Shown piece by piece: positions 16,409 to 43,156 of a stretch of 43,407 bases of DNA (position 1 is the stretch's first letter; each line of letters opens with the position of its first letter). Position numbers and translations under genes: made by a program. Source of the stretch: an uncultured Bacilli bacterium. Its GTDB lineage: Bacteria > Bacillota_I > Bacilli_A > RF39 > UBA660. The notes under the pieces were generated by a model that was not told where the DNA came from, did not search any database, and saw only the letters and a program-made list of their open reading frames with translations. Location of the stretch: assembly GCA_944358525.1 (NCBI GenBank), contig CALVRI010000007.1:1-43407 (forward strand), in the 5' to 3' direction.

Positions 16409-17182
16409 TTATTTAATCAATTTTTTAATCTTAGCTAAACCATTTTTTTCTAAACGAGATATCTGAGCTTGACTAATGCCAATTTCCTCAGCTAGTTCCG
16501 TTTGTGTTCTACCCATCATATATCTTTGTAAAATAATATATTTTTCCTTTTCTTTTATTTGATTTAATGCCTTTCTTAATGATATTTTTGTTTCAATATC
16601 ATAAATTCCCTTATCACTAGAAAGCTGATCAGATAAATAAATAATATCCCCACCATCACTATAAATAGGTTCAAACATACTTACAGTATCTTTAAGTGAA
16701 TTCAATGCTTGAACTACTTCCCATTCTGATATATGAAGTTTTTCTGCAATTTCTAAAGTTGTTGGTTCTTTATTGTTTTTAAAAGTAAGTTCATCCTTTA
16801 CCCTCAAAGCCTTATAAGCTAAATCTTTAATACTTCTAGATACCCTTAAACAGCTATTATCTCTTAAATATCTTTTTATTTCCCCTAGTATCATTGGAAC
16901 CGCATAAGTACTAAAACGCACCTCATGATTTAAATCAAAATTATCGATCGCCTTAATTAATCCAATCACCCCTACTTGAAATAAATCATCTAAATTATCT
17001 ACCCTTCCAGAAAAACTTTTTAAAACGGATAAAACCAACTTTAAATTTCCTTGAATCAAATCATCCTTCGCCTTTAAATCCCCATCATGATATTTATTAA
17101 ATAATTCCAATTGTTCTTCCAAAGTTAAAACTTTAATATTCGCAGTATTCACGTTCGCAATTTCTACCTTGTGACGTGCCAT
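16409..17182 (-). CDS. sigG: RNA polymerase sigma factor SigG
   Basis: Late forespore sigma factor, 257 residues. The start 'MARHKVEIANVNTANIKVL' is the SigG signature. Then come sigma region 2 ('LDDLFQVGVIGLIKAIDNFD...FSTYAVPMILGEIKRYLRD'), region 3 and region 4 with helix-turn-helix 'TQTELAEEIGISQAQISRLE'. In Bacillus sigG lies directly after sigE; here four genes intervene. A strong hairpin covers its ribosome-binding site (separate entry). SigF/SigG-driven expression in the forespore is expected from the family. Confidence 0.95.
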   Translation of the reverse strand: MARHKVEIANVNTANIKVLTLEEQLELFNKYHDGDLKAKDDLIQGNLKLVLSVLKSFSGRVDNLDDLFQVGVIGLIKAIDNFDLNHEVRFSTYAVPMILGEIKRYLRDNSCLRVSRSIKDLAYKALRVKDELTFKNNKEPTTLEIAEKLHISEWEVVQALNSLKDTVSMFEPIYSDGGDIIYLSDQLSSDKGIYDIETKISLRKALNQIKEKEKYIILQRYMMGRTQTELAEEIGISQAQISRLEKNGLAKIKKLIK

Positions 17183-20543: not shown

Positions 20544-21233
20544 TTAATTTTTATCAAGTTGTTTTAATTTTCTTATAACTTTTTTTTCAATTCTCGATAT
20601 ATAAGATTGACTAATACCTAATAATTTAGCAACATCTTTTTGAGTCATTTCATCATTACCATAAAGTCCATATCTTAAAACCATAATTTTTTTATCCCTA
20701 TCACTTAACCTCTCAATTTCTTCATATAACAATTTTTTATTTGTCTCTTCTTCTAACCCCCTAGTCACAATATCACTATCTGTTCCCAAAATATCTTCTA
20801 AATGAAGTTCATTTCCCTCAGAATCAAAGCTCAAATTATCTTCAAAACTAATTTCACCTCTTCTTCTTTTATTTTTTCTCAAAAACATCAATATCTCATT
20901 ATCAATACACCTAGAAGCATAAGTTGCAAGTTTAATATTTTTGCTAAGTTTATAAGTATTTACTCCCTTAATCAAACCAACACTACCAATACTAACCAAA
21001 TCTTCCAAATCAACACCTGTATTTTCATATTTTTTTGCAAGAAAAACAACTAACCTTAGATTATGCTCAATAAGTTTACTCCTTGCTTTCTTATCACCGT
21101 TCATTGAAAGAGTTACATACTTAATCTCATCATCTTTAGAAAGGGGGGCTGGAAGCTTGTCCGCACTTCCGATAAAAAATACCCCATCCTTTTCAAAAAA
21201 TCTCTTAATTAAATAAATTATCTTTTTAATCAT
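20544..21233 (-). CDS. sigE: RNA polymerase sigma factor SigE (pro-sigma-E)
   Basis: Early mother-cell sigma factor, 229 residues. 'FFIGSADKLPAPLSKDDE' at about residues 19-36 matches the processing region and mature start of Bacillus pro-SigE. The pro-sequence is short, about 18 residues against about 27 in Bacillus. Region 2 is 'DLVSIGSVGLIKGVNTYKLSKNIKLATYASRCIDNEILMFLRK'; region 4 ends in the helix-turn-helix 'TQKDVAKLLGISQSYISRIE'. Its ATG overlaps the TGA of spoIIGA by one base pair of shared ATGA, showing translational coupling with its activating protease. Confidence 0.95.
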   Translation of the reverse strand: MIKKIIYLIKRFFEKDGVFFIGSADKLPAPLSKDDEIKYVTLSMNGDKKARSKLIEHNLRLVVFLAKKYENTGVDLEDLVSIGSVGLIKGVNTYKLSKNIKLATYASRCIDNEILMFLRKNKRRRGEISFEDNLSFDSEGNELHLEDILGTDSDIVTRGLEEETNKKLLYEEIERLSDRDKKIMVLRYGLYGNDEMTQKDVAKLLGISQSYISRIEKKVIRKLKQLDKN

Positions 21234-22003
21234 CTTGTATCTCCTTTCATTAACCCATTTAATAAAACATCAGCACCACCTAATTTAAAATCTTTACTAA
21301 AACCTAAATAAACATCTTCAAAAACCCCTAGACCTATAACTTCAACCCGCCTTACTTTTATACATTCCAGCACCCCACTCCCTCCTATAACAATATATGG
21401 AATATATATTTTTTTATTTCTAAAATTATTATCAATATTAGTTAGAATTACTAACCTATTTTTATAAGTTAAAGTATTACCAGAATCCAAATATCCATTT
21501 AAATTTAAAACCTTTCTTCCTATATAAATGTTTGTCTTAAAACTAAAAACAATTTTTTGTTTAAACATTCTCATCTGTTTAATATAGAAATATAAAATAA
21601 TTGGCGAAATAATAATTAAAAATAAAGCATTAATACTAAAACCATCATTAAAAAAAATTAAACCATCGTGTTTATAAGAAAAAGTAATATTTAAAAAATA
21701 TAAAAAACCACCAAGTAAAATACTTACCATATAAAAAACTCCAACATTTACCAAAAAGCTTTTTAAATTTTTATACCCAAAGCAAACTATACACATAATA
21801 AAACTTAAATAAATTTTAATAAAAAATAGCTGCATAGAATCAATTTTAAAAAACAAAACCAAAATAGTTAAACTACCAATAAAAGCTCCAAAAATAATTC
21901 TAAACATCTTTACATTTCTCTTTAGTAAAATTACCACTGTAAGTAAAAGGAGGAAATCAAAATAAAAGTTTAAAAACAAAAGCCCATCAATATATACTGT
22001 CAT
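21230..22003 (-). CDS. spoIIGA: Sporulation sigma-E factor-processing peptidase SpoIIGA
   Basis: Membrane aspartic protease that cleaves pro-SigE at the forespore-facing septum when triggered by SpoIIR. Five transmembrane helices (residues 1-145) precede a pepsin-like half-domain with the catalytic 'YLDSGNTL' (D173). The family continues 'LVILTN' and 'GGADVLLNG' near the end. At 257 residues it is shorter than the Bacillus protein (about 309), mostly in the C-terminal part. GGTGGTGAT precedes the ATG. It is co-transcribed with sigE. Confidence 0.93.
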   Translation of the reverse strand: MTVYIDGLLFLNFYFDFLLLLTVVILLKRNVKMFRIIFGAFIGSLTILVLFFKIDSMQLFFIKIYLSFIMCIVCFGYKNLKSFLVNVGVFYMVSILLGGFLYFLNITFSYKHDGLIFFNDGFSINALFLIIISPIILYFYIKQMRMFKQKIVFSFKTNIYIGRKVLNLNGYLDSGNTLTYKNRLVILTNIDNNFRNKKIYIPYIVIGGSGVLECIKVRRVEVIGLGVFEDVYLGFSKDFKLGGADVLLNGLMKGDTR

Positions 22004-30961: not shown

Positions 30962-30993
30962 AAAATAGCTAGAAAACTTATTCTAGCTATTTT
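30962..30993. terminator. Bidirectional terminator between spoVB-like and PFOR genes
   Basis: A 13-bp stem AAAATAGCTAGAA / TTCTAGCTATTTT with a 6-nt loop; the PFOR stop codon is within it. Confidence 0.85.
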
Positions 30994-33900
30994 ACTAAAC
31001 TCTTATAATAATCAAACCTCTTCATCGCCGCATTCTTATTAATCTTAAGCATCTCATCAGCTTGATTAGGATTAACCGTTTTAAGCATACTATACCTAGT
31101 TTGATTACTTAAAAAATCATCATATAAACTAAAATCAGGATTTGGACTATCTAAATTAAATTCATCTTTAGTTCCATCATATCTAAATATTGGAAAATAT
31201 CCACATTTAGTAGCTAAAGCTTCCTCTTCTATAGAGCAACCCATACCCGCTTTAATACCATGAGAAATACAAGGACAATATGCAATTATAATAGAAGGTC
31301 CATCGTGCTTAATTGCCTCATTAATAGCTTTAATTGTCTGCATCATATTAGCTCCAAGTGATACTTGAGCTACATAAACATTCGGATAAGCCATTGCAAT
31401 TCTAGCCAAATCTTTCTTATAATTTTTCTTACCAGATGCGGCAAACTCGGCCACCATACCCTCTGGTGTGGCCTTAGAAGCTTGCCCACCAGTATTAGAA
31501 TAAACCTCTGTATTAAGCACTAAAATATTTATATTAGAACCACTAGAAAGTACATGATCTATTCCACCAAAACCAATATCATATGCCCATCCATCACCAC
31601 CGACAGCCCAAACATTTTTAGCCACAATATAATTCTTATATTCTTTCAATTTAAAATGTTTTTCAAAATCTATATTATCATAAACCTCTTTAGTTATTGA
31701 ATAATCATTAGAATTATTAAGCCACTTATCAAAAAGTTCATCTTGATTTTCAAGCATATATTTTCTAACCATATTCTTACCATTTTCATAACCCATTAGT
31801 ATTCCATAACCAAATTCAGCATTATCTTCAAATAAACTATTAACCCAAGGAACACTGTATGGGGCATTGGGCAGCTCTCCTCCATAAATAGATGAACAAC
31901 CCGTCGCATTTGCAATTACTAAATTATCACCAGAAAGCTGTGTTAATAATTTAATATAAGCCGTCTCTCCACATCCCGCACAAGCTCCGTGAAAAGCAAA
32001 TTTCGGTCTCTTAAGTTGACTACCTTTAATGGTCTCTTTATTAAATTTATCTTTTTCTGAAATATTATTAACTAAATAATCAAATACCTTGTCATTATTA
32101 CTATCTTTAAGTTTTTCAAAAGCTAAAGCCTTATTACCACGCATACCCGGACAAGTATTTATGCATACAGAGCATCCAGTACAATTTTTAGCTGAAATAG
32201 CTATAACATAATAATGATCAGGTACACCAATAGCTGGTTTACAAATTTCTTTAATAAAATTAGGAGCCTTATCATACTCATCCTTATTAAGTAAAAATGG
32301 TCTAATTACTCCATGTGGACAAACAAGTGAACACATACTACACTGTATACAATTTTCCTTAAACCACTTAGGCACAAACTCCGCAATATTCTGCATTTCT
32401 GGCTCAGTATGTTCAAAAGAACCATCCTCAAAACCTCGAAAATCAGAAACCTTTAAAGCATTTCCTTTTCTATGAGCTAAAGCTTCGTAAATATTTTCAC
32501 TAGGAAATTTTAAATCTTCTTCCATATCATCTAATTCGACTTCTTTTAAATGAACATCCCTCAATGCTGAAATGTTGTTTTCGGCAACTTCTTTACTTTT
32601 AACACCAAATTTTTTCATTACATAATCTTCAAGTTTTTTTGTTGCTTCATCTTCATTTACTAAATCAGTTAACTTAAATATAGCTTTTTCCATAATCATA
32701 CTAATTTTACGACCTAAATTATGTTTTCGTGCAACTTCATCCGCATCAACAACATAAACCTTTATATTCTTCTCTTTCAAAAATCTTTTATAAGGATCTA
32801 AAGCTCCTAACAAACTATTATCATCCATACTAGTATTAATTAAAAGTTTTCCTTCAGAAGAAAGACTAGTAATTGCATCAAAAACAGATAAATAAGTATC
32901 TTTAGAAATGACTATAAGTTTAGGGTTATGTACAAAATAAGTTGAATGAATAGGTTTATCTGAAAATCTCAAATGACTACAAGTAACACCGCCAGATTTT
33001 TTAGAATCATATTCAAAATATCCTTGAACATACTTATCTCCATCACCAACAATTCCAAGTAATGATTTAGAACAACTCACCATTCCATCACTGCCATAAC
33101 CATAGATAAGCATTTCCGTATTATCTGTAACATTAATATTTTCATAATTTAAAGATAAATTAGTCACATCATCATCAATACCAATTGTAAACTCATCTTT
33201 AGGATTATCAAGCATATCATAAACAGCTTTTATCATACCAGGAGTTACATCTTTACTAGAAAGTCCATAACGACCATGACAAATATTTATTTTTTTATTT
33301 TTTAAACTACTAACTATATCTAAATATAAAGGTTCTCCCTCGCTTCCAGCCTCTTTAGTTCTATCAAGTACCGCAATTTTTTCTACACTAGAAGGTAAAA
33401 CATCAAGTAAATACTTATCACTAAATGGTCTAAATAAATGAACTTCAACTAAACCAATTTCCCCTTTTAAATAATCGATTGTTTCCTTAATCGCCTCACA
33501 AACTGAACCCATAGCAACAATAACTTTTTTAGCCCTAGAACTTCCATAATAATTAAACGGTTTATAACTAGTTCCAGCAAGATCATTTATCTTACTCATA
33601 TATTCATTTACAATATTGGGTACTTTATCATAAAATTTATTTCTAGCTTCCGTTTCTTGAAAATAAATATCACCGTTTTGATTAGTTCCTCTAGTAACTG
33701 GATGTTCATTATTCAAAGCTCTATTTCTAAAAGCTAAAATATTCTCATAAGGAATTATTTTTTTAATATCCTCATCTTCCAAAATATTAATTTTATTAAG
33801 TTCATGACTTGTCCTAAATCCATCAAAAAAGTGTAAAAAAGGTAAAGAAGCTTCAATACTAGACAAATGACTAACTAAAGCTAAATTATAAGCATCTTGG

Positions 33901-34331
33901 ACAGAAGAAGAAGCCATCATACAAAATCCCGTACTTCGTGTCGCATAAATATCCTGATGATCACCAAAAATACTTAAAGCATGTGTAGCTAATGACCTTG
34001 CTGCCACATGCATAACAAACGGCCACATTTCACCAGCAATCTTATACATATTAGGTATCATTAAAAGTAAACCTTGGCTAGCCGTATATGTAGATGCTAA
34101 AGAACCAGTTTGTAAAACACCATGAACCATGCCAATAGCGCCCGCTTCACTTTGCATCTCTACCACCTTAGGTACTGAATCAAATAAATTTTTCTTACCT
34201 TCCATTGCCCATTTATCAATAAGTTCAGGCATCGGACTAGATGGTGTAATCGGATAAATACCCGCCACTTCTGTAAACAAATACGAAGCTCGCGCACAAG
34301 CTTCATTACCATCACAAGTTATTTTCTTCAT
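30987..34331 (-). CDS. nifJ: Pyruvate:ferredoxin (flavodoxin) oxidoreductase
   Basis: Single-chain PFOR, 1114 residues, converting pyruvate and CoA to acetyl-CoA, CO2 and reduced ferredoxin/flavodoxin in anaerobic metabolism. Order seen: N-terminal thiamine-type domain ('GIYPITPSSPMPELIDKWA'), pyruvate-binding and CoA segments, two 4Fe-4S motifs ('CIQCSMCSLVCP', 'CTGCSVCINTCP'), then the TPP domain with the proximal cluster cysteine motif 'GACAGCGETAYI' and 'GDGWAYDIGFGGIDHV...NTEVYSNTGGQAS'. The length is slightly under the usual 1170. AAGGAGG precedes the ATG. It lies 11 nt after the rpe-pilin gene, so probably in that operon. Confidence 0.95.
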   Translation of the reverse strand: MKKITCDGNEACARASYLFTEVAGIYPITPSSPMPELIDKWAMEGKKNLFDSVPKVVEMQSEAGAIGMVHGVLQTGSLASTYTASQGLLLMIPNMYKIAGEMWPFVMHVAARSLATHALSIFGDHQDIYATRSTGFCMMASSSVQDAYNLALVSHLSSIEASLPFLHFFDGFRTSHELNKINILEDEDIKKIIPYENILAFRNRALNNEHPVTRGTNQNGDIYFQETEARNKFYDKVPNIVNEYMSKINDLAGTSYKPFNYYGSSRAKKVIVAMGSVCEAIKETIDYLKGEIGLVEVHLFRPFSDKYLLDVLPSSVEKIAVLDRTKEAGSEGEPLYLDIVSSLKNKKINICHGRYGLSSKDVTPGMIKAVYDMLDNPKDEFTIGIDDDVTNLSLNYENINVTDNTEMLIYGYGSDGMVSCSKSLLGIVGDGDKYVQGYFEYDSKKSGGVTCSHLRFSDKPIHSTYFVHNPKLIVISKDTYLSVFDAITSLSSEGKLLINTSMDDNSLLGALDPYKRFLKEKNIKVYVVDADEVARKHNLGRKISMIMEKAIFKLTDLVNEDEATKKLEDYVMKKFGVKSKEVAENNISALRDVHLKEVELDDMEEDLKFPSENIYEALAHRKGNALKVSDFRGFEDGSFEHTEPEMQNIAEFVPKWFKENCIQCSMCSLVCPHGVIRPFLLNKDEYDKAPNFIKEICKPAIGVPDHYYVIAISAKNCTGCSVCINTCPGMRGNKALAFEKLKDSNNDKVFDYLVNNISEKDKFNKETIKGSQLKRPKFAFHGACAGCGETAYIKLLTQLSGDNLVIANATGCSSIYGGELPNAPYSVPWVNSLFEDNAEFGYGILMGYENGKNMVRKYMLENQDELFDKWLNNSNDYSITKEVYDNIDFEKHFKLKEYKNYIVAKNVWAVGGDGWAYDIGFGGIDHVLSSGSNINILVLNTEVYSNTGGQASKATPEGMVAEFAASGKKNYKKDLARIAMAYPNVYVAQVSLGANMMQTIKAINEAIKHDGPSIIIAYCPCISHGIKAGMGCSIEEEALATKCGYFPIFRYDGTKDEFNLDSPNPDFSLYDDFLSNQTRYSMLKTVNPNQADEMLKINKNAAMKRFDYYKSLVK

Positions 34332-34342
34332 ATAAATCCTCC

Positions 34343-35392
34343 TTATCTATGACAAGCCTCATCCGCATTTTCATAAATAACATCATAACTATAATCACTA
34401 CCATTAGTTGTTGTAATTTGAACAGACACTCCACTAGTCGAATCAACATAAGGCTTTTCAGTCATTGGATTAACTAAATTATCATCTATATAACCTTTAT
34501 CAACAATTTGACCATTAATCGTCCCACCATCTTGAAGTTGTCTAACTGTAACTGTTACTGGAGAAGCTGAAGAAGTTGGAAGTAAATTAGGATAATCTAC
34601 CATCATCATTTTAGTTCCCTCAATCAAATTAGTCTCTTGAACTAAACAACTATCATAACGACTTTTCTTAATATTATTATCAATAGTTGTTACTGCCACT
34701 AAACCTAAAATACTCAAAACGATTATAACCCCAAGTAATTCCGCTAAAGTAAAACCGTTTCTTAAACTTTTCTTTAGTTTATAAATTTGACTTTGATAAT
34801 TTTCACTATCAGTAATAAATGAACCAACTACTACTATATCTACATTTTTTACCTTTTTAATAGTAGCATCATTAATACCTCCATCCACTTCTATCAAATA
34901 AGATAAATTATTTTCATCACGGTATTCTATCAAGTTTTTTACTTTATCAGTTATATCAATAAAAGTCTGTCCACTAGCTCCAGCTTTAACACTCATAACT
35001 AAAACCATATCTATATCATTTAAATATGGATACACATCTTCTACTTTAGTATTAGGATTAATCGCAATTCCAACTTTTACTCCTTTATCTTTTATATAAC
35101 TAATAATCTCAGATACATTATAAGAAGCTTCTAAATGAAACGTTATAAAACTAGGATTTATAGGTATAACTTTATCAACATATTTCTTTATATCATTGAC
35201 CATCAAATGCACATCAATAGGTTTTCTCAACCCTTTAATATCTTCACACATCTGGTCAACTGAAAGAGTTGGATGTTCTGTAAATTTACCATCCATTATA
35301 TCAAAATGTATATAATCACAAACCTCATCTAAATCTTTAATTTTAGAAATATTGTCCTGAATTTTCAAAAAAGAACCAGCTATTTTAACCAT
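34343..35392 (-). CDS. rpe: Ribulose-phosphate 3-epimerase fused to a type IV prepilin
   Basis: 349 residues in one frame. Residues 1-about 205 are a full Rpe (pentose phosphate pathway, ribulose 5-P to xylulose 5-P) with metal ligands H29, D31, H62 and D170 in 'YIHFDIMDG', 'VHLM' and 'EVDGGI'. The chain then reads 'YKLKKSLRNG/FTLAELLGVII': G213/F214 is the prepilin cleavage site, with Glu five residues after it, then a hydrophobic helix to about 234 and a pilin-like domain with C249 and C347. No in-frame ATG, GTG or TTG lies near the junction. It sits at the normal rpe place after rsgA. The pilin part needs a prepilin peptidase, not seen here. Confidence 0.9.
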   Translation of the reverse strand: MVKIAGSFLKIQDNISKIKDLDEVCDYIHFDIMDGKFTEHPTLSVDQMCEDIKGLRKPIDVHLMVNDIKKYVDKVIPINPSFITFHLEASYNVSEIISYIKDKGVKVGIAINPNTKVEDVYPYLNDIDMVLVMSVKAGASGQTFIDITDKVKNLIEYRDENNLSYLIEVDGGINDATIKKVKNVDIVVVGSFITDSENYQSQIYKLKKSLRNGFTLAELLGVIIVLSILGLVAVTTIDNNIKKSRYDSCLVQETNLIEGTKMMMVDYPNLLPTSSASPVTVTVRQLQDGGTINGQIVDKGYIDDNLVNPMTEKPYVDSTSGVSVQITTTNGSDYSYDVIYENADEACHR

Positions 35393-35403
35393 TAATAATC
35401 ACC

Positions 35404-36231
35404 TCATTTTAAGAAATTTATATAATTATCATATCTACTTTTTAAAATAGTTCCATCCAAAACTTTTTCTTTAACTTTGCATTTTTTCTCCTGAATATGA
35501 AAACAATCTCTAAATTGACATTCATCTCTATATAAATTAAATTCCACAAAATTATCACGAATATCTTCTTTGCTCATACCGGTAAATTCCAAAGCGGAAA
35601 ATCCAGGAGTATCCGCAACTAATCCACCGCATAACTCATGCAGTTCTGTATGTCTTGTCGTGTGTTTTCCTCTATTTAAAGCAAGTGATATTTCACCCGT
35701 TTTTAAATTTAAATTAGGATTAATTTTATTTAAAAGTGTACTTTTACCAGCCCCACTTTGGCCAGTAAACACACACACATTACCTTTAAAAATTTTTTTA
35801 ACCTTAGAAATATCATCATTCATATAAACCTCATAACCAATTTTTTTATAATAATTAATTACAAATTTTATATCTTCAAATTCATTTCCATCTAATAAAT
35901 CAGCTTTGGTAAAAACAATAACTGGTTTAATTTTATTATATTCACATATAACCAAAAACTTATCGAGTAAATTAGAAGAAAAATCAGGTTTTTTCAAACT
36001 AGTAATAATTACAGCTATATCAACATTAGCAACAGTTGGTCTAGTAAGTTCATTATTACGAGGTAAAACTTCCAAAATATATTTATTATTTTCATCAAAT
36101 ATTACCTCATCACCAACAATTGGTGAAAGGCCCATGTTTCTAAATTTACCACGGGCTTTACACACAAATTCTTCATCTAAAGTTTTAACTGTATAATCAT
36201 TACTAATAAGCTTAACTATCTTACCTTTCAT
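35404..36231 (-). CDS. rsgA: Ribosome small-subunit GTPase RsgA
   Basis: Circularly permuted GTPase that helps mature the 30S subunit. 275 residues: OB domain (1-65), G4 'TKAD' (108-111), G1 'GQSGAGKS' (157-164), switch region 'GKHTTRHTELHEL', G3 'DTPG' (207-210), and a zinc-binding C-terminus with C238, C243, H245 and C251. It follows prkC by 3 nt and precedes rpe, the normal Firmicute order. Confidence 0.95.
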   Translation of the reverse strand: MKGKIVKLISNDYTVKTLDEEFVCKARGKFRNMGLSPIVGDEVIFDENNKYILEVLPRNNELTRPTVANVDIAVIITSLKKPDFSSNLLDKFLVICEYNKIKPVIVFTKADLLDGNEFEDIKFVINYYKKIGYEVYMNDDISKVKKIFKGNVCVFTGQSGAGKSTLLNKINPNLNLKTGEISLALNRGKHTTRHTELHELCGGLVADTPGFSALEFTGMSKEDIRDNFVEFNLYRDECQFRDCFHIQEKKCKVKEKVLDGTILKSRYDNYINFLK

Positions 36232-42283: not shown

Positions 42284-43156
42284 TTAAGCTAATTTTTTAC
42301 GAGCTATAAATACTACTACCACACTTAAAGCTAAAGTAGCAAAAGTAATCATAATTCCATCTGAAGTTTTTGGATTTTCTACTTCATCTTTAACATCTTC
42401 ATCTTTGACATCTTCAGATGGTTCTGTAATTGAAACTGGGGTTTTAATTAAAGTATAACCATAAGCAAAATCACTACTTACTGCATCGCCAGAAATTGAT
42501 GCATGGGTTTTATCATTTTCTCCTAATGCATAAGTAAATTTGTCACTATCTTTTTGTGCGACTACTAAGTTATCTTTAACATCAACAACTGTTGAATACA
42601 CATTCGCATTTTCAAAAACATTTACTTTTACTTGTAGACCACTTTCTCCATATACAGATATATTTCCATATAAATTAGTTACACCTGTTCCCATATAAGT
42701 AGAAGCAGATCTAACCTCTAAATTACCAACAATATTTACAGTACCATTATTTGTAAATGTTGTAGGCGCTCCAGTAGTTAAAGCCATATTACCATACAAA
42801 TTGAAAGTAGAGCCTTCATTAACTACAATATTAATTGGATACTTTTGACTATTATATGTAACATACATTAAGTTTTTCATATGCCTTGTCTCAGCAACAC
42901 CATCAACAGTCATAGTAATACCATTACCATCAAATGCTACTAAAACTTTTCCTTCAGTAATATTAATATAACCATCTTCTCCAATTAATTTTTCGCCAAG
43001 AGCTGTAAAAGTATCACCAGCCAAAAACTCTTTTGATGTTCCTCCCATTATTTCAAGTGCTGTATCATCTGTATAATCAGCAGCCTTTACATTACCAAAT
43101 GGCATTAAACAAACCCCTAAAACCAAAGTTCCTAAAAATAATCCTAGCTTTTTCAT
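42284..43156 (-). CDS. Sortase-anchored surface protein (NPKTS motif)
   Basis: 290 residues. Signal peptide 'MKKLGLFLGTLVLGVCLMPFGNVKA' (1-25). The mature part is beta-rich with repeating 'TFTNNGTVNIVGNLEVRSAS', 'TNLYGNISVYGESGLQV' strands like a right-handed beta-helix. An acidic spacer ('EDVKDEDVKDEVE') precedes the cell-wall sorting signal NPKTS (261-265), a hydrophobic segment and 'ARKKLA'. NPKTS is a variant of the sortase LPxTG/NPxTG motif; the sortase is not in this window. Ligand and role unknown. GGAGGAGG lies before the ATG. Confidence 0.85.
   Translation of the reverse strand: MKKLGLFLGTLVLGVCLMPFGNVKAADYTDDTALEIMGGTSKEFLAGDTFTALGEKLIGEDGYINITEGKVLVAFDGNGITMTVDGVAETRHMKNLMYVTYNSQKYPINIVVNEGSTFNLYGNMALTTGAPTTFTNNGTVNIVGNLEVRSASTYMGTGVTNLYGNISVYGESGLQVKVNVFENANVYSTVVDVKDNLVVAQKDSDKFTYALGENDKTHASISGDAVSSDFAYGYTLIKTPVSITEPSEDVKDEDVKDEVENPKTSDGIMITFATLALSVVVVFIARKKLA

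Follow-up and report, generated by a model that had tools for sequence, protein, structure and literature searches.

An rpe-pilin gene fusion in a genus of uncultured Bacilli, a predicted precursor of both a metabolic enzyme and a type IV pilin

Described prepilins carry leaders of 6–26 residues (PMC4471445), and prepilin peptidase, PilD, is known to cut on the cytoplasmic face of the membrane (PMC10191384, PMC4471445). Here we describe a gene in which a pilin follows, in the same frame, a ribulose-phosphate 3-epimerase (Rpe). With type IVa prepilins and pseudopilins bearing a class III signal peptide (PF07963), its product shares the hydrophilic positive stretch, the G/F site, E+5, the long helix and the small beta head, and the genome likewise encodes cognate PilD, PilC and PilB; the difference is that the predicted leader is a folded 213-residue enzyme and not a peptide of 6–26 residues (PMC4471445). 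With Rpe (PF00834; NF004076) it shares a complete domain, all catalytic residues, the conserved rpe locus and the 2fli fold, but no stop separates the enzyme from the membrane helix and pilin head that follow. A non-pilin domain is also joined to a pilin in the modular pilins PilB and PilC of Streptococcus sanguinis, where the pilin displays the grafted domain, which has an adhesive function (PMC10191384); in the fusion, by contrast, the extra domain precedes the cut site, would stay inside and is an enzyme. Finally, translationally coupled overlapping gene pairs (for example PMC6728339, PMC10666635) have a stop-start overlap like that of the split relatives presented below, whereas in the fusion one frame has replaced the two and the signals for a second start have decayed. 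Within the open-licence literature, we came across no account of an rpe-pilin fusion, of a very long leader or of an enzyme in the role of a prepilin leader, and our literature search gave no report of the peptidase acting on a folded 23-kDa leader.

The gene was found in a window of 43,407 nucleotides, the whole stretch of DNA analyzed (GenBank assembly GCA_944358525.1, contig CALVRI010000007.1), from an uncultured bacterium of the Bacilli. All genomes used are draft metagenome-assembled genomes (MAGs), that of the window being 80% complete and 1.3 Mb long. Members of the genus have small genomes and are probably gut-dwelling, a habitat inferred from public records of relatives. The relevant features are the following.

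34343 to 35392, minus strand: rpe-pilin fusion gene (P0001), a single open frame with Pfam matches to Rpe and N_methyl and an AlphaFold2 model of mean pLDDT 95.4
34775 to 35392, minus strand: ribulose-phosphate 3-epimerase domain, about residues 1-206, with PF00834 at residues 6-193, a fold match to 2fli and invariant catalytic residues
34754 to 34780, minus strand: junction KLKKSLRNG, residues 205-213, a cytoplasmic positive linker and predicted prepilin peptidase site, near-invariant in 16 fused species
34346 to 34753, minus strand: predicted mature type IV pilin, residues 214-349 (FTLAELLG...ACHR), with N_methyl, invariant F+1 and E+5, and in the AlphaFold2 model a helix at 216-266 plus a small beta domain
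35404 to 36231, minus strand: rsgA, upstream neighbor in the same operon (PF03193, E 4e-55)
30987 to 34331, minus strand: nifJ, pyruvate:ferredoxin oxidoreductase (PF01855, E 5.7e-76)

The frame runs on the minus strand from an ATG at 35392 down to 34343 and encodes 349 amino acids with no internal stop. This confirms the original prediction, made from the letters alone and without naming the strand, of one stop-free frame for an epimerase and then a prepilin, with KSLRNG/FTLAE at the join. The expected conserved locus rlmN-stp-prkC-rsgA-rpe was also recovered, as rlmN, PP2C, PASTA kinase, rsgA and rpe, and nifJ starts 11 nt past the fusion stop. Elsewhere in the window, the regions 20544-22003 and 16409-17182 encode SpoIIGA (PF03419, E 6e-33), whose gene lies beside one for a sigma factor, and, as judged by sequence, another sigma factor of sporulation type, placing sporulation regulators in a 1.3-Mb genome. 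At 42284-43156 lies a gene for a secreted protein without Pfam match, ending in NPKTSD, a hydrophobic helix and RKKLA, which resembles a sortase signal.

The epimerase part is matched by Ribul_P_3_epim (PF00834) over residues 6-193 (E 2.6e-46; 157.9 bits, cut-off 21.1) and by NF004076 of NCBIfam (190.7 bits, cut-off 165); the equivalog cut-off of TIGR01163 is missed (171.4 versus 212.6). Its best fold match is S. pyogenes Rpe (2fli), with a TM-score of 0.89 on the target. The metal ligands originally named, H29, D31, H62 and D170, are all in place and, like S7 and D34, invariant across 40 aligned Rpe-bearing rows. As far as sequence can tell, the Rpe domain is complete with intact catalytic residues; epimerase activity was not assayed. 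Exactly one Rpe match was obtained in 43 of the 44 genomes of the genus. The remaining one, G021, has three, two of which are apparently pieces of one gene broken across contigs; it alone in the genus carries an extra copy, a second, more diverged Rpe-family gene (G021:C73:15800-16390). No second soluble Rpe was found in any of the 24 genomes with the fusion, with the caveat that these counts rest on draft MAGs, in any one of which a second rpe could be missed.

The N_methyl profile (PF07963) matches residues 211-233, scoring 20.0 bits in the protein scan, just under the cut-off of 21.2, and 23.9 bits, over it, in the genome scan; across the alignment all pilin-bearing rows (38/38) match at E <= 0.01. 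The prepilin motif reads NG/FTLAELLGVIIVLSILGLVAVTTI, with a hydrophobic stretch of about 21 residues. When fused and split relatives are aligned, F+1, T+2 and E+5 are invariant and position -1 is always G or A. AlphaFold2 models a confident two-part protein (mean pLDDT 95.4), in which the epimerase barrel extends to about residue 210, pLDDT dips to 78 over residues 211-220, the linker end included, and a continuous pilin helix (216-266) leads into a small beta head; the long N-terminal helix and the beta head are features of the pilin fold. Structural comparison of the pilin alone returned pseudopilins and pilins as top neighbors at low Z (best 5.4), the nearest being the type II secretion pseudopilins of the Xcp pseudopilus model and PulG, both weak (Z 5.4 and 5.2). 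Foldseek against the PDB gave no significant match for the pilin alone, and viral structures gave none informative on the fusion. All 24 fused species retain the extracytoplasmic domain, including an NPMT-like motif and cysteines.

At 213 residues, the leader of the fusion lies outside the 6–26 range; the other 14 prepilins of the window genome have ordinary short leaders with an ATG. No other enzyme-pilin fusion of the genus was seen in 14 loci fetched for long pilin frames, 12 from the genus and two from another genus (G044), which do not cover every pilin of the genus; the pilins there are C-terminally long and their leaders ordinary and short. A further protein (L105:8888-10171) matches DUF6273, and two prepilin-like proteins, at L105:15467-16720 and in L003, have, by eye, a similar C-terminal WRII..DG..KI pattern, which suggests modular pilins.

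The original prediction had singled out prepilin peptidase and pilus ATPase genes as worth checking, and prepilin peptidase, PilC and an assembly ATPase were all found. A prepilin peptidase match is present in 24/24 fused genomes, and the assembly machinery (T2SSF, that is PilC, and T2SSE, the ATPase) occurs through the genus. PilD of the window genome has both peptidase and methylase domains (PF06750 and PF01478) and its gene adjoins pilC. The genome also encodes an ATPase of the PilB type and, separately, a Tad system. In G013, a 92% complete genome with split rpe and pilin genes, neither prepilin peptidase nor PilC was found while 14 prepilin motifs remain, reflecting either gene loss or missing contigs.

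Related genomes, where the same fusion had been proposed to be sought, contain the two genes in both fused and split form. Among 44 genomes of the genus, 24 have the fusion, 19 have split adjacent genes and one (G041) is cut off within rpe by the end of its contig. The fused proteins are 49–76% identical to that of the window. An indel at the join, initially a concern, is excluded in practice by the open fused frame in 24 separately assembled species. Sixteen of these form the clade of the window (support 100/99), and in all 16 the distance between two conserved landmarks is exactly 69 nt. Overlapping samples of 386 genomes from the family and 385 from the order gave no fusion outside the genus; as far as sampled, it is restricted to one genus. 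An assembly from another genus (G174) has nifJ directly after rpe without a pilin between, from which we infer that the pilin may have been inserted between rpe and nifJ in the present genus. In a further genus (G388, locus L106), a different pilin starts 3 nt past the end of the rpe frame as a split gene; the adjacency of rpe and pilin may thus have arisen more than once.

The strongest sign that ribosomes read through the join comes from the junction itself. KLKKxLRNG (205-213) is identical at 8 of 9 positions across all 16 species of the clade, and synonymous codons vary freely among them; the corresponding Rpe end is variable in the alignment of split species. For these residues pS is 0.81 and pN 0.075, a ratio of 0.09 that is the lowest of six segments, Rpe having 0.37 and the pilin head 0.54, all from uncorrected proportions and, at the junction, from just nine codons. 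Since the protein is kept while its codons vary, this is the best evidence of read-through that we have; on this pattern, the constraint acts on protein and not on DNA, with the junction translated and selected. As originally noted, no start codon lies near the join: upstream of the cleavage-site glycine, the window gene has no in-frame ATG, GTG or TTG within 30 codons, and the Shine-Dalgarno sequence and ATG of the split relatives' pilins have been lost in its clade. The codons at residue 203 (ATT, GTT, GTA, ATA, TTT) are likewise not conserved as alternative starts in the clade. An internal start was accordingly rejected for this clade, which has no conserved ATG, GTG or TTG and a decayed Shine-Dalgarno sequence.

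The split genomes indicate what was lost. All 19 split pilins have their own ATG 2–6 codons ahead of the cut site, usually inside the rpe end and overlapping the rpe stop, and most genomes have a strong Shine-Dalgarno sequence there (energies at the pilin ATG -3.2 to -11.1). In the clade of the window the best upstream energy is just -0.6 to -4.5, with start codons either missing or only sporadic. The clade sequence CTA AAG AAA AGT TTA AGA AAC GGT stands against CTA AGG AGG AGT TTA A ATG AAT AAA AAA GCC in a split species; with AAG AAA (Lys Lys) in place of AGG AGG (Arg Arg), the Shine-Dalgarno sequence is gone and the charge is kept. The landmark distance is 76 nt in most split species near the clade and 69 nt within it, and this net loss of 7 nt fits the removal of the stop and the joining of the frames, a single deletion being our inference. 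Other fused lineages have distances of 60, 63, 66, 69, 72 and 78 nt, all multiples of 3, as expected of separate fusion events. Three related genomes (G023, G035 and G026) are fused yet retain the ATG and a Shine-Dalgarno sequence (-6.8 to -8.1); they are intermediates, in which separate pilin synthesis is possible. G001 is fused and retains the ATG without a Shine-Dalgarno sequence.

A tree of rpe and rsgA requires 5 changes of fused state, at least 4 of them forced, and a tree built from RsgA alone requires 6, of which at least 3 are forced; placing all fused genes in a single clade is rejected (p-AU 1.7e-45). Together the trees call for at least 3–4 changes of state and probably 5–6, with several origins of the fusion from split genes that mostly overlap. 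Reversals could account for some changes; fission would require a regained start, Shine-Dalgarno sequence and stop, except from an intermediate form.

We think it probable, in line with the original prediction, that the fusion is a natural two-product precursor, which PilD would cut after G213 into a soluble Rpe and a 136-residue pilin. Rpe would be made first and fold in the cytoplasm; the pilin helix would come next and insert in the membrane, leaving the positively charged KLKK..R stretch on the inner side. Cleavage by the genome's PilD after G213, on the cytoplasmic face, would free Rpe as a soluble protein of 213 residues that ends in a short C-terminal tail, and the mature pilin, beginning at F214, would join a type IV filament. 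In the ancestral split pair, mostly overlapping and probably translationally coupled, small indels would have removed the rpe stop and set both genes in one frame, and later decay of the pilin Shine-Dalgarno sequence and start would have left the pilin wholly dependent on rpe translation. The single frame, its conservation and recurrence, the loss of initiation signals, the junction selection and the presence of the peptidase are observed. Cleavage, its site, the solubility of Rpe and incorporation into a pilus are inferred, with no protein, transcript or read data behind them.

The same lack of direct evidence of cutting leaves room for an uncut fusion, in which the pilin helix would anchor Rpe at the membrane, perhaps with the pilin-like domain outside, as does a leader some eight times the length of the longest one in the papers we consulted (PMC4471445). 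A mere anchor would need neither the G/A at -1, F+1 and E+5 kept in 24/24 fused species nor the extracytoplasmic domain, NPMT-like motif and cysteines included, and PilD is present in every fused genome; we regard this alternative as unlikely. The pilin could also, or exclusively, be made from a start codon inside the fused gene, at the junction or close to it, with the fused product as a by-product, and the start signals kept by G023, G035 and G026, like the lone ATG of G001, are what it would look like. Against it stand the clade without a conserved start codon, the junction kept as protein and not as DNA, and the window gene itself, with no in-frame start within 30 codons, and we give it very little weight. 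That assembly or sequencing falsely joined two genes can practically be dismissed: every sequence does come from draft metagenome assemblies, but 24 separate species assemblies share the open fusion, 16 of them with identical junction length and diverged sequence, and an artefact was rejected on these grounds.

A different matter is why the fusion persists. If PilD makes the join harmless, it could arise and be maintained by mutation and loss of start signals without benefit, and we see the chances of this as evenly balanced; it does not exclude the two-product precursor, as the cutting mechanism is common to both. Several independent lineages with differing linker lengths, and intermediates that retain start signals, are in keeping with neutrality. 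Stronger-than-average selection on the junction in the clade of the window and persistence over 16 species argue against it, though a fusion that began neutrally and on which dependence then developed would also fit both.

If the two-product precursor is real, a complete folded enzyme can act as a prepilin leader, far beyond 6–26 residues, and PilD can serve as the maturation protease of a cytoplasmic enzyme. We lean, with some reserve, toward a view in which PilD, as a polyprotein-processing protease, serves central metabolism: each chain would yield one pilin and one Rpe, apparently the cell's only one, which would link the supply of pili with an enzyme of the pentose-phosphate pathway and leave the production of soluble Rpe dependent on PilD, an arrangement that would have evolved several times in one genus. 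Closely related species also present a natural series, from split genes with their own start, through fusions with the start kept, to fusions with the start lost, which lets the merging of overlapping genes be followed stepwise.
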